Positions 316 to 18,160 of a DNA stretch of 44,989 nt are shown here, in pieces. The stretch's first letter is position 1. Every line of letters starts with the position of its first letter. A program made the position numbers and the translations under genes. The notes beneath the pieces are model-generated. The model searched no databases. It saw nothing but the letters and a program-made list of their open reading frames with translations, and was not told the DNA's origin. Origin of the DNA: Kandleria vitulina DSM 20405 (GTDB lineage: Bacteria > Bacillota_I > Bacilli_A > Erysipelotrichales > Coprobacillaceae); NCBI RefSeq assembly GCF_000702065.1, contig NZ_JNKN01000016.1, positions 1-44,989 on the forward strand. Direction: 5' to 3'.

Positions 316-585
316 TTATTGTATCACTTTTAACGCTCTAAGCTGTTTTTCAAATTCACGAATTGCCTTGTTTTCATCATATCCATCAGCTGTGATTGTG
401 ATATCAGCTTTATTTGGAATTCCCAATGATACAACCCCCATAAAAGATTTAAAATTTACAGTTCTCCCTCCATATGAGATGGAGATATCGCTGTTGAAGT
501 CACCAGCAAATTTGATTAATTTCTCAACCAAACCTGCATATAGACCATCGGGGTGAATAATTCTATAAGTAACTGCTTTTGACAT
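316..585 (-). CDS. HPr-like/Crh-like regulatory protein lacking the active-site histidine
   Basis: This 89-aa protein has HPr length and fold signature: the region NFKSFMGVVSLGI (about residues 44-56) is the HPr Ser46 helix, and the C-terminal ITITADGYDE strand-helix also matches. The phosphocarrier loop, normally GLHARPA, reads GLYAGLV, so Tyr16 and Gly18 stand where His15 and Arg17 should be. It therefore cannot accept phosphate from enzyme I in the normal way. Ser47, the counterpart of Ser46 phosphorylated by HPr kinase, is retained. That pattern is known from Bacillus Crh (Gln at position 15), a catabolite-repression cofactor. A role as a Ser-phosphorylated partner of CcpA is inferred. 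An AAAAGGAGG RBS precedes the ATG; the gene's 3' end touches an IS1182-like element. Confidence 0.85.
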   Translation of the reverse strand: MSKAVTYRIIHPDGLYAGLVEKLIKFAGDFNSDISISYGGRTVNFKSFMGVVSLGIPNKADITITADGYDENKAIREFEKQLRALKVIQ

Positions 586-14861: not shown

Positions 14862-15022
14862 ATGGGTAAATAAGATATTTCATATATATATCAAAGACGT
14901 AAAATTTTTACACAATAATGGACGGATAAGAAATTTTTTAAACAAATCTAATATTTTATAAGGTAAATAAAAAGGGTTTGTGCTATTATAGTTGTATATT
15001 AATTAGGAGGATTATAGAGAAA

Positions 15023-16327
15023 ATGAAGAAATTTAGTTATGTAGTTGATAATCCAATGGGCGTACATGCTCGTCCTGCTGCTTTATTAGCTCAGTTATGC
15101 GTTAATTTAAAAAGTGCTGTTGTAGTAGAATGTAATGGGAAAACAGCAAGTGGGAATAACGTATTACAGATTCTTGCTTTAGGCGCTAAGAAAGGTGATA
15201 CTTTAAACGTTAGTGCTGAAGGTGACGATGAAGAAGCTGCAATTTCACAGATTGAAGAATTATTCAACGGTGAATTTACAGAAAAAGAAGAATATGATGT
15301 TCTTAAGGTAGCATTCTTTGGAACAAAGGATTATGACAGAACTTTCTTTAGTGAATTAACTAAGGATAAAGGTCCTGGAACATATAACTGCGATATCAAA
15401 TATTTCAGCGTACGTTTAACTCCTGAAACTGCTTCTTTAGCAAAAGGTTATGATGCTGTTTGTATCTTCGTAAATGATGAAGCACCAAGACAGGTTGTAG
15501 AAGAATTAGCTGCAGGTGGCGTTAAGTTAATCTTATTACGTTGTGCTGGTTTCAACAACGTAGATTTACAGGCTGCAAAAGAATGCAACATCAAGGTTGC
15601 TCGTGTTCCAGCATACTCTCCATATGCAGTAGCTGAACATGCTATGGCTATCATCCAGGAAGCAAACAGAAGATTAGGTAAAGCTTATAACAAAGTAAGA
15701 GATAACAACTTCGCTTTATCTGGTTTATTAGGTGTAGACTTACATAATAAAGTCTGCGGTGTTATGGGTACTGGTAAAATTGGTCAGTGCTTCGCTAGAA
15801 TCGCTAAAGGTTACGGTATGACTGTAATTGGTTGGGATGCTTATCCAAATCAGGCTTTAGTAGATGAAGGATTATTAACTTATGTTTCTAAAGACGAATT
15901 ATTAGAAAAAGCTGATTTAATTTCATTACATGCACCATTAATCATGGGTGAAGGTGGAACTTACCACTTAATCGATGCTGATGCAATCAGCAAAATGAAA
16001 GATAACGTTATGCTTGTAAACTCAGCTCGTGGACCATTAATCGATGCAGAAGCATTAATCGCTGCATTAAAACAGGGTAAATTCCACGCTGTAGCATTAG
16101 ACGTATATGAAGGAGAAGATGCTAACGTTTATACTGATAGATCTGATGAAGCATTACATAGCTCTATCACTGCACGTTTACAGATGTTCCCTAACTTAGT
16201 ATTAACATCTCATCAGGCATTCTTCACTCGTGAAGCATTACAGGCTATCGCTGTTGTTACTATGGAAAATGCTCGTAACTTCAACGAAGGTAATGATTTA
16301 GGTTTTGCTGAATGTAAAGCTCAGTAA
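15023..16327 (+). CDS. HPr phosphocarrier domain fused to D-lactate dehydrogenase
   Basis: The 434-aa protein joins two complete domains. Residues 1-85 are an HPr domain with the active loop GVHARPAALL (His15, Arg17) in exact HPr numbering; Ser46, the HPr-kinase site, is Asn46. Residues about 93-434 are an LdhA-type D-2-hydroxyacid dehydrogenase, which reduces pyruvate to D-lactate with NADH. It has the MGTGKIGQ dinucleotide loop with Asp272, and catalytic Arg336 (SARG), Glu365 (DVYEGE) and His397 (SHQAF), each offset by 101 from the Lactobacillus D-LDH residues. I infer that enzyme I could phosphorylate His15 with PEP and so tune lactate formation. The ATG at 15023 has TAGGAGG upstream. Leucine is nearly all TTA, suggesting high expression. 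Single-gene unit with a strong terminator. Confidence 0.92.
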   Translation: MKKFSYVVDNPMGVHARPAALLAQLCVNLKSAVVVECNGKTASGNNVLQILALGAKKGDTLNVSAEGDDEEAAISQIEELFNGEFTEKEEYDVLKVAFFGTKDYDRTFFSELTKDKGPGTYNCDIKYFSVRLTPETASLAKGYDAVCIFVNDEAPRQVVEELAAGGVKLILLRCAGFNNVDLQAAKECNIKVARVPAYSPYAVAEHAMAIIQEANRRLGKAYNKVRDNNFALSGLLGVDLHNKVCGVMGTGKIGQCFARIAKGYGMTVIGWDAYPNQALVDEGLLTYVSKDELLEKADLISLHAPLIMGEGGTYHLIDADAISKMKDNVMLVNSARGPLIDAEALIAALKQGKFHAVALDVYEGEDANVYTDRSDEALHSSITARLQMFPNLVLTSHQAFFTREALQAIAVVTMENARNFNEGNDLGFAECKAQ

Positions 16328-16347: not shown

Positions 16348-16380
16348 AGAGGAAATTCTTATGAATTTCCTCTTTTTTTT
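16348..16380 (+). terminator. Terminator of the HPr-LDH gene
   Basis: AGAGGAAATTC (16348-16358) pairs with GAATTTCCTCT (16363-16373) around TTAT, followed by eight T. Confidence 0.92.
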
Positions 16381-16430: not shown

Positions 16431-16492
16431 TTCTTAAAAAAATCTTAAGAAAAAGTGATAAAATTCTTAATTTTGGGTGGAAATTCTTAAAA
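16431..16492 (+). promoter_or_regulatory. Phased CTTAA box array upstream of the first NlpC/P60 gene
   Basis: CTTAA cores start at 16433, 16444, 16466 and 16486, that is at steps of 11, 22 and 20 bases, so they face one side of the helix. The last lies about 14 bases before a TATAAT (16500-16505). The paralogous gene downstream has a cleaner array (17361-17404). Direct repeats at 11 bp are typical binding sites of OmpR/PhoB-family response regulators. Confidence 0.6.
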
Positions 16493-16545
16493 AAATGTTT
16501 ATAATTATAAACAGTAACAATAAAAATGTAATGAGGAGATTATTT

Positions 16546-17322
16546 ATGAATACCCACCAATTTATCAAGAAACATAGAAAGTTAATTATGATTATCGCTG
16601 CAATCGCATTGATGATTGTCCCTGTATCAGCTGCAAAGAATGCAATGGAAGTAGATGCGTCTACATCAAAAATTGTAAGCTTAGCTTATTCTAAATTGGG
16701 AAGTAAATATATTTATGGTGCAAGCCATTCTATGAGTGCTTTAAGAAATAAAAAACAGAGAGCTTTCGACTGTTCCGGTTTTGTGAGCTGGGTGTATTAC
16801 CAGTCAGGTCACAATATTGGTGTTCGTACAACTAGTTCATTAAGATCAGTTGGTAAACGTGTATCATGGGCTAACAGACAGAAAGGTGATATCTTATTAT
16901 TCGGTTCTCATACAGGAATCTATATTGGTAATAATAAGATGATTCATGCTCCAAATAGCAGATCACGTGTAAAAGTAGAAAATTTATCTGGTCATTGGAG
17001 AAGTAGACTTAAACAGATAAGAAGAGTTGTTTCTTCATCTGATAAGGCTGCTGTAGAAAAAACTATCTCTAAGGCTACAAAAGCAGTAAATGCTGCTAAT
17101 ACAAATACATCTTCTTCAAAATATACAACTGGTAATTGGAAAATTACTGTATCTTCTAATGTAAGAGCTAAAGCAACTGCTTCTTCTAAGAAATTAAGTA
17201 GATTGAAGAAAGGTTCAGTTGTTACTGTTAAATCTATCAAGTATGGTAGATGGGCAAAAATCTCTTTCAAAGGAAAGACAGGATGGGTATCTCTAAGAGG
17301 TGCTCATGCAGTTAGAGCTTAG
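16546..17322 (+). CDS. Secreted NlpC/P60 cell-wall hydrolase with SH3-like domain
   Basis: The 258-aa precursor has a signal peptide (basic HKHRK-like start, LIMIIAAIALMIVPVSA). The NlpC/P60 domain spans about residues 35-160 with Cys76 (FDCSGFVSW), His122 (GSHTGIYIG) and His134 (MIHAP), the usual catalytic triad for cleaving peptidoglycan stem peptides. After a Ser/Thr/Ala-rich linker, the C-terminus is an SH3b-type wall-binding domain (WKITVSSNVRAKATASSKKLSRLKKG, GKTGWVSL). The mature protein is very basic. Start chosen at the ATG with GAGGAG 7 bases ahead. A close paralogue follows, and both have CTTAA box arrays upstream. Confidence 0.92.
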   Translation: MNTHQFIKKHRKLIMIIAAIALMIVPVSAAKNAMEVDASTSKIVSLAYSKLGSKYIYGASHSMSALRNKKQRAFDCSGFVSWVYYQSGHNIGVRTTSSLRSVGKRVSWANRQKGDILLFGSHTGIYIGNNKMIHAPNSRSRVKVENLSGHWRSRLKQIRRVVSSSDKAAVEKTISKATKAVNAANTNTSSSKYTTGNWKITVSSNVRAKATASSKKLSRLKKGSVVTVKSIKYGRWAKISFKGKTGWVSLRGAHAVRA

Positions 17323-17324
17323 TG

Positions 17325-17352
17325 AGAAATGTCTTAGGACATTTCTTTTTTT
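17325..17352 (+). terminator. Terminator between the two NlpC/P60 genes
   Basis: AGAAATGTC (17325-17333) and GACATTTCT (17338-17346) form the stem around TTAG, followed by a T run. The two paralogues are therefore separate transcripts. Confidence 0.88.
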
Positions 17353-17360
17353 ATGTCAAA

Positions 17361-17404
17361 TCTTAAGAAAATCTTAAGCAAACCTTAAGAATTTCTTAAG
17401 AAAG
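17361..17404 (+). promoter_or_regulatory. Four tandem 11-bp TCTTAAG repeats upstream of the second NlpC/P60 gene
   Basis: Four consecutive 11-base units read TCTTAAGAAAA, TCTTAAGCAAA, CCTTAAGAATT and TCTTAAGAAAG, with CTTAAG cores starting at 17362, 17373, 17384 and 17395. The array ends 2 bases before the -35 element of the gene's promoter. This is the geometry of an activator site for an OmpR/PhoB-family response regulator; WalR and CiaR sites have the same 11-bp step. The regulator is not in the window. Confidence 0.75.
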
Positions 17405-17406
17405 TA

Positions 17407-17435
17407 TTTACAAATGAATATTCTTAATGCATAAT
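17407..17435 (+). promoter_or_regulatory. Promoter of the second NlpC/P60 gene
   Basis: TTTACA (17407-17412) and CATAAT (17430-17435) are 17 bp apart, directly downstream of the 11-bp repeat array. Confidence 0.7.
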
Positions 17436-17461
17436 AGTGCTTGTATGAAGGAGGAGATAAA

Positions 17462-18160
17462 ATGAATACCCACATATTCAAGAAGAGTAAGAAGCTAGTT
17501 ATTACTATTGTATTATTATTCGCTGTTGTTTTTGGTTTAGTTACAAATGCGATGAGTGCAGATGCGGCTTCTTCTAGGATAGTGAGTAAAGCATATTCAC
17601 GATTAGGAAGTACATATGTGTATGGGGCAGGACATTCTATGGGAGCCCTAAGAAACAAGAGACAAAGAAAGTTCGACTGCTCAAGCCTTGTCAGCTGGGT
17701 GTATTATCAATCTGGTATTAATATTGGCGTAAGAACGACAAGTTCTCTTCGCTCAGTAGGAAAACGTGTATCATGGAAAAATAGACAGAAAGGCGATATT
17801 CTATTATTTGGTTCACACACTGGAATCTATATTGGAAACAATAAAATGATTCATGCACCAAGTTCTGGAAAGAAGATTCAGATTACTTCTTTATCAGGAC
17901 GCTATAGACGTCGTCTTAAGCAGATTCGTCGTGTTGTAGGTGTTAAAACTTCAAGCAAGAAGAAATCCTACAAGGCCGGTCGTTATGTCTTAAAACATTG
18001 GATGTACGTGCGTACGAAAGCCAGCGTTCACTCTAAAAGAGTTGGTAAGATCTACAAGAGAACAGTTATTCGTGTAGTATCAACTAAAGGATCTTGGGGA
18101 CGTTTTAAATATAAAGGTCACTATAGATATGTGAAGCTTACTAAAGCAAGAAGGGTATAA
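17462..18160 (+). CDS. Secreted NlpC/P60 cell-wall hydrolase, paralogue
   Basis: The 232-aa precursor has a signal peptide (KKLVITIVLLFAVVFGLVTNAMSADA) and an NlpC/P60 domain with Cys73 in FDCSSLVSW, the same GSHTGIYIG and MIHAP motifs, and the long shared stretch around GVRTTSSLRSVGKRVSW. It is clearly a duplicate of the preceding gene. The C-terminal SH3-like part (LKHWMYVRTKASVHSKRVGKIYKR) has diverged and the linker is shorter, so wall targeting may differ. It should cleave peptidoglycan stem peptides outside the cell. The ATG has GGAGGAG 7 bases ahead. It has its own promoter with an 11-bp repeat array. Confidence 0.92.
   Translation: MNTHIFKKSKKLVITIVLLFAVVFGLVTNAMSADAASSRIVSKAYSRLGSTYVYGAGHSMGALRNKRQRKFDCSSLVSWVYYQSGINIGVRTTSSLRSVGKRVSWKNRQKGDILLFGSHTGIYIGNNKMIHAPSSGKKIQITSLSGRYRRRLKQIRRVVGVKTSSKKKSYKAGRYVLKHWMYVRTKASVHSKRVGKIYKRTVIRVVSTKGSWGRFKYKGHYRYVKLTKARRV

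Follow-up and report, generated by a model that had tools for sequence, protein, structure and literature searches.

An HPr phosphocarrier domain fused to an LdhA-type D-lactate dehydrogenase in Kandleria vitulina and related Erysipelotrichales

A stretch of 44,989 nucleotides from Kandleria vitulina DSM 20405 (contig NZ_JNKN01000016.1, positions 1-44,989; hereafter the window, to which coordinates refer unless another locus is named) contains a gene that joins HPr, the phosphocarrier of the phosphoenolpyruvate (PEP)-dependent sugar phosphotransferase system (PTS), to a complete LdhA-type D-lactate dehydrogenase (D-LDH) in one reading frame. The fusion is conserved in 14 genera of the order Erysipelotrichales, with the active-site residues of both halves intact. 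We propose that it is a D-LDH with a built-in PTS sensor, whose activity would be set by phosphorylation of His15 by PEP and enzyme I (EI); on the sequence evidence we regard this as an evenly balanced proposition.

Architecture of the fusion gene

The gene is a single frame without interruption, closed by a stop codon. Its parts are as follows.

15023..16327, forward strand: HPr-D-LDH fusion gene, 434 amino acids plus stop (translation, Pfam, NCBIfam, homolog search)
15023..15268, forward strand: HPr domain, residues 1-82 (Pfam PF00381 at 3-82; TIGR01003 at 1-82; predicted local distance difference test score, pLDDT, about 90 here in the AlphaFold2 model)
15065..15067, forward strand: His15 codon, predicted phosphorylation site (unchanged in 71 non-identical fused domains)
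15071..15073, forward strand: Arg17 codon, phosphohistidine partner (unchanged in fused domains)
15158..15160, forward strand: Asn46 codon, at the position of Ser46, the HPr-kinase target (family: Asn 60, Asp 11, Ser 0)
15269..15301, forward strand: linker, residues 83-93 (near-constant length, variable sequence)
15302..16324, forward strand: LdhA-type D-LDH part, residues 94-434 (Pfam; sequence and fold matches in the structure database)
16028..16030, forward strand: catalytic Arg336 codon (invariant)
16115..16117, forward strand: catalytic Glu365 codon (invariant)
16211..16213, forward strand: catalytic His397 codon (invariant)

The PTS-HPr match in Pfam has an E-value of 1.7e-23 (82.9 bits against a cut-off of 23), and the NCBIfam model TIGR01003 ('HPr family') scores 76 bits against a cut-off of 47.9 with all of its positions covered (1-82 of 82). 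The 2-Hacid_dh domain spans residues 102-425 and its NAD-binding domain residues 209-399 (E 4.9e-44). Pfam finds no further PTS domain (IIA or EI) in the protein, which consists solely of HPr and 2-hydroxyacid dehydrogenase domains. An earlier note on this DNA, made from the sequence alone, had described a full HPr domain and a full LdhA-type D-LDH in one open reading frame, and translation, Pfam and NCBIfam bear this out.

The closest solved structures to the dehydrogenase half are the LdhA-type D-LDHs of Fusobacterium nucleatum, Pseudomonas aeruginosa and Escherichia coli. Against the Fusobacterium enzyme (5z21) the phmmer E-value is 1.2e-94, a full-length match to the tetrameric LdhA group, and the top Foldseek matches of the predicted model are likewise LdhA types. 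The alignment to 5z21 is co-linear through all three catalytic motifs, and the catalytic residues that the note had pointed out, Arg336, Glu365 and His397, are the same in each of 100 fused sequences aligned. Its placing of them exactly 101 residues after those of the reference D-LDH holds as far as this co-linearity goes; the figure itself agrees with the numbering that we take for the Lactobacillus bulgaricus enzyme (R235/E264/H296). Residues 94-434 are a complete LdhA-type D-LDH, for which NADH-dependent reduction of pyruvate to D-lactate, a tetrameric assembly and allostery are predicted; allosteric control is documented for tetrameric LdhA enzymes (PMC4230899).

Distribution and origin

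We searched 316 Erysipelotrichales genomes from 80 genera and found a strong homolog in 79 of them, representing 14 genera. Every homolog that is not cut by a contig end (77 of 77) is a full-length fusion, at 66-88% identity, and the loss of the HPr half was found in none of these complete copies; two candidates for unfused members of the clade (G466 and G459) were rejected, both shorter copies ending at contig borders. The earlier note had named a stop or frameshift between the domains as what would overturn its reading. The frame is uninterrupted, and because the identical junction recurs in the 77 complete homologs, a frameshift, a chimeric assembly or a chance fusion can be rejected. Separate production of the dehydrogenase from an internal start is also unlikely, since 60 of 84 fused genes have no in-frame ATG, GTG or TTG close to the start of the dehydrogenase.

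In a scan of contigs, the carriers include Eggerthia catenaformis, Sharpea azabuensis, S. porci, Faecalibacillus faecis, F. intestinalis, Floccifex porci, [Clostridium] spiroforme and many metagenome-assembled genomes from the rumen. No fusion was found outside the order in samples of the class and the phylum, which as samples could miss rare carriers; the nearest homologs there are unfused LdhA enzymes at 45-52% identity. In the dehydrogenase tree the fused sequences form one clade (support 100) adjoining unfused LdhA enzymes of other families of the Bacilli, which argues for one origin, after which the HPr half was never lost again. A search of other genomes and a tree for each half, as the note had proposed, yield 79 genomes with a homolog among 316, one dehydrogenase clade and one HPr clade (99/95). 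Descent from an adjacent hpr-ldhA gene pair was considered and rejected, as no HPr gene was found in the loci of unfused LdhA relatives. In one genome of the family (G009) the fused D-LDH is accompanied by an unfused LdhA with which it shares 48% identity (gene G009:C22:25499-26473, within L184 = G009:C22:24500-27500). The nearest relative of the latter in the tree belongs to another family of the class, which suggests that it was acquired by transfer.

Conservation of the HPr half

His15 and Arg17, which the note had found in register, are the same in all of the 71 non-identical fused domains compared, and Gly13, Ala16, Val47 and Leu48 do not vary either. This constancy is set in a domain that diverges faster than its partner, the mean pairwise identity being 0.575 for the HPr half and 0.797 for the dehydrogenase half. 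The positions that face EI and EIIA, a set chosen from general knowledge of HPr, are more conserved than random position sets of the domain (permutation p 0.007). The pattern fits an HPr domain that would still dock PTS partners and carry phosphate. Position 46 is Asn in 60 domains, Asp in 11 and Ser in none, and the fused domain is accordingly not an HPr of the Ser46-regulated kind.

The faster divergence and the loss of Ser46 might instead mark the HPr half as a structural relic, a folded N-terminal extension that stabilizes the tetramer or aids expression and is no longer phosphorylated. We consider this very improbable, and the least likely of the alternatives discussed here, because His15 and Arg17 are kept in every domain although the surface has changed at most of its positions. 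Where the site has really been lost, in paralogs encoded by these same genomes, Tyr stands in place of His15.

PTS components and HPr paralogs

K. vitulina encodes EI, as do the other near-complete genomes with the fusion that we checked, and K. vitulina also encodes HPr kinase. Its genome contains four HPr domains. One is canonical (His15, Ser46), one resembles Crh (Tyr15, Ser46), a third type has Lys46, and the last is that of the fusion (Asn46). The gene for the third type (His15, Lys46) lies 43 nucleotides behind that of an EIIBCA permease of the sucrose/beta-glucoside class, an order that recurs in two other genera. Its copies behind EIIBCA genes, from three genera, are as follows.

L003, 1489-1746, reverse strand: third-type HPr
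L209, 4011-4289, reverse strand: third-type HPr
L210, 4259-4564, forward strand: third-type HPr
L211, 3737-4012, forward strand: third-type HPr

The third type is probably a working phosphocarrier lineage dedicated to its permease, which HPr kinase would be unable to phosphorylate at position 46. Upstream in these loci, a gene for a HAD phosphatase and one for a glycoside hydrolase are recognizable on visual inspection of the sequence. The HPr tree places the fused clade with the third type (97/89); both branches are long, however, and may have been joined artefactually. If the grouping is real, the loss of Ser46 may predate the fusion. The earlier note had proposed that control by HPr kinase was removed in the fusion; the replacement of Ser46 holds for all fused copies, but its removal at the fusion does not follow, since the nearest free HPr (Lys46) is also without Ser46.

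This relationship also bears on a simpler role, that of a tethered phosphocarrier, in which the HPr half would be an ordinary, Ser46-insensitive HPr feeding EIIA units and the dehydrogenase a mere abundant carrier for it. Such an arrangement would provide an HPr immune to shut-off by HPr kinase and present in amounts that track fermentation, and it agrees with the conserved His15, Arg17 and partner-binding face and with the permease-linked, Ser46-less nearest free HPr. Yet the genomes already hold a canonical HPr and often the Lys46 type, so that an extra carrier needs no dehydrogenase; moreover, the HPr half never parts from this one enzyme, and some copies have Asp46. We judge this role unlikely.

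The Crh-like paralog is encoded within the window itself (316-585, reverse strand) and has Tyr15 and Gly17 with Ser46 kept, the mirror image of the fused domain; similar Tyr15/Ser46 proteins are found in about ten related genomes.

A predicted PTS sensor on a fermentation enzyme

PEP and EI phosphorylate HPr on His15, releasing pyruvate, the substrate of lactate dehydrogenase. In the sensor that we propose, the HPr half would take phosphate on His15 from PEP through EI, as free HPr does, and either its phosphorylation state or the EI or EIIA bound at that face would alter the activity of the attached, tetrameric and probably allosteric D-LDH. During rapid inflow of PTS sugars HPr would be mostly unphosphorylated, and pyruvate and NADH high; the unphosphorylated form would therefore be expected to be the more active dehydrogenase, and the phosphorylated form, prevailing when sugar is poor and the PEP/pyruvate ratio high, to be restrained. 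The sign of this effect is a guess.

Several observations favor the sensor: Gly13, His15, Ala16, Arg17, Val47 and Leu48 are invariant despite the faster divergence of the HPr half, this half is kept in all 77 complete copies, EI is present, the nearest free HPr is permease-linked and lacks Ser46, and the dehydrogenase half groups with tetrameric LdhA enzymes. Others weigh against it. The Asp46 of 11 of the 71 domains does so because Asp mimics phospho-Ser46, which slows transfer from EI in known Firmicute HPr; Gly54, on the same face of the fused domain, is variable; and in the AlphaFold2 monomer model of the fusion (pLDDT 84.6; predicted template modelling score, pTM, 0.71, only moderate) the position of HPr with respect to the dehydrogenase active site is not reliable.

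Two other uses of the same parts can be envisaged. The HPr half could bind EI or a PTS complex and hold the dehydrogenase where PTS turnover releases pyruvate, for immediate reduction; the kinetics of the enzyme need not then change upon phosphorylation. Pyruvate is the second product of EI in textbook PTS chemistry, and the EI-facing surface is conserved, but pyruvate diffuses fast and is also made by pyruvate kinase, and docking alone does not need an invariant His15 and Arg17. Such channelling seems to us decidedly unlikely. Alternatively, information might run in the reverse direction, with the dehydrogenase half reporting the NADH and pyruvate state to the PTS and substrate binding altering the uptake or donation of phosphate by HPr. 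The anatomy is the same as for the sensor, both apo and ternary structures of LdhA enzymes are available, and domain closure upon substrate binding is established for the D-LDH fold; the cell's free HPr paralogs, however, would bypass such a brake, and we think this direction highly improbable.

Should the sensor be real, a whole clade of gut and rumen bacteria would govern a main enzyme of its fermentation through a covalently fused PTS carrier that is phosphorylated on histidine at the expense of PEP, making the state of sugar import a direct input to lactate formation. It would be the first PTS domain to serve as the regulatory part of a fermentative dehydrogenase. We place the chance of this wider claim a little short of even.

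Physiological setting

L-lactate dehydrogenase (L-LDH; TIGR01771) is missing from 5 of 11 fusion-bearing genomes of the family to which K. vitulina belongs, but from none of the 15 near-complete ones that lack the fusion (Fisher p 0.007, computed by hand). The link is suggestive, because only three independent genera contribute; it looks as though the fused D-LDH could stand in for L-LDH. E. catenaformis (G019/L035) is among the five genomes without L-LDH, and it and K. vitulina are known as D-lactate producers.

In sheep with low methane yield, the D-LDH gene of S. azabuensis is strongly expressed, its transcripts being raised 12-fold along with those of PTS genes (PMC5069950). Going beyond what the paper says, we infer from a fusion-bearing S. 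azabuensis record (L037) that this transcript is the fused gene. Because of this rise, the way in which the fused enzyme is regulated could matter for lactate and acidosis in the rumen and for methane yield; the fusion is found in Sharpea, Eggerthia, Faecalibacillus and Erysipelotrichales of the rumen. For engineering, it also supplies a naturally occurring lactate enzyme that may be switchable by phosphorylation.

Expression signals and neighboring genes

The following elements flank the gene.

14978..14989, forward strand: extended -10-like promoter element TTGTGCTATTAT (consensus match only; a similar element lies 5' of most orthologs shown)
15005..15010, forward strand: ribosome-binding site AGGAGG, 12 nucleotides upstream of the fusion-gene ATG
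16348..16373, forward strand: intrinsic terminator, 11 pairs followed by a T run

Its own AGGAGG and 3' terminator indicate that the fusion is a single gene, and as its neighbors are not common to other carriers, it stands alone. No conserved operon partner was found, none of the other window genes tested recurring in more than 5 of 80 homologous loci, and a partner as the reason for the fusion is rejected on the same count. A Rex-type operator in the promoter was also considered and rejected: the TTGTG element coincides in part with the -10 box and has no second half-site, so we read it as an extended -10. On the 3' side lie two consecutive genes for NlpC/P60-type peptidoglycan hydrolases (16477-18160, forward strand).

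Comparison with known systems

The tetrameric, allosteric LdhA-type D-LDHs (F. nucleatum 5z21/6abi, P. aeruginosa 5z20, E. coli 5z1z) resemble the whole dehydrogenase part, including the catalytic Arg, Glu and His, at 43-46% identity, but their chains lack the N-terminal HPr domain. With Firmicute HPr (PtsH) the fusion shares the HPr domain, the His15/Arg17 motif and the hydrophobic pair at 47/48, and it differs in Asn or Asp at 46 and in its covalent attachment to a non-PTS enzyme. Crh is, like the fused domain, an HPr paralog with only one of the two phosphorylation sites; it keeps Ser46 and has lost His15, the opposite of the fused domain, which is therefore not a Crh.

HPr fusions to other PTS domains are already known, and in the multiphosphoryl transfer proteins (FruB/FPr, DhaM and HPr-EI fusions) HPr is likewise one domain of a longer protein (PMC2405797). 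There its partners are PTS domains (IIA, EI) and not a fermentation enzyme, which sets the present protein outside that group. In keeping with the earlier note, which knew of no characterized enzyme of this architecture, we found no paper in the open-licence literature that describes HPr joined to a dehydrogenase.

The nearest functional parallel is non-covalent: in E. coli, free HPr is reported to control PykF, PfkB, NagB and Adk through direct binding (as cited in PMC8167557), so that there too the state of HPr governs metabolic enzymes. That HPr is free and diffusible, whereas in the fusion it is part of the enzyme chain, and covalent attachment would therefore fix such a contact. PTS control of metabolic enzymes is known in the form of reversible contacts with free HPr. 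A covalent link to D-LDH that has been conserved would show that evolution can make one of them permanent, and would allow a clean test of how sugar import determines the products of fermentation. Glycerol kinase in Firmicutes is a further metabolic enzyme under HPr control. Both modules of the fusion are known; it is their arrangement that is new.
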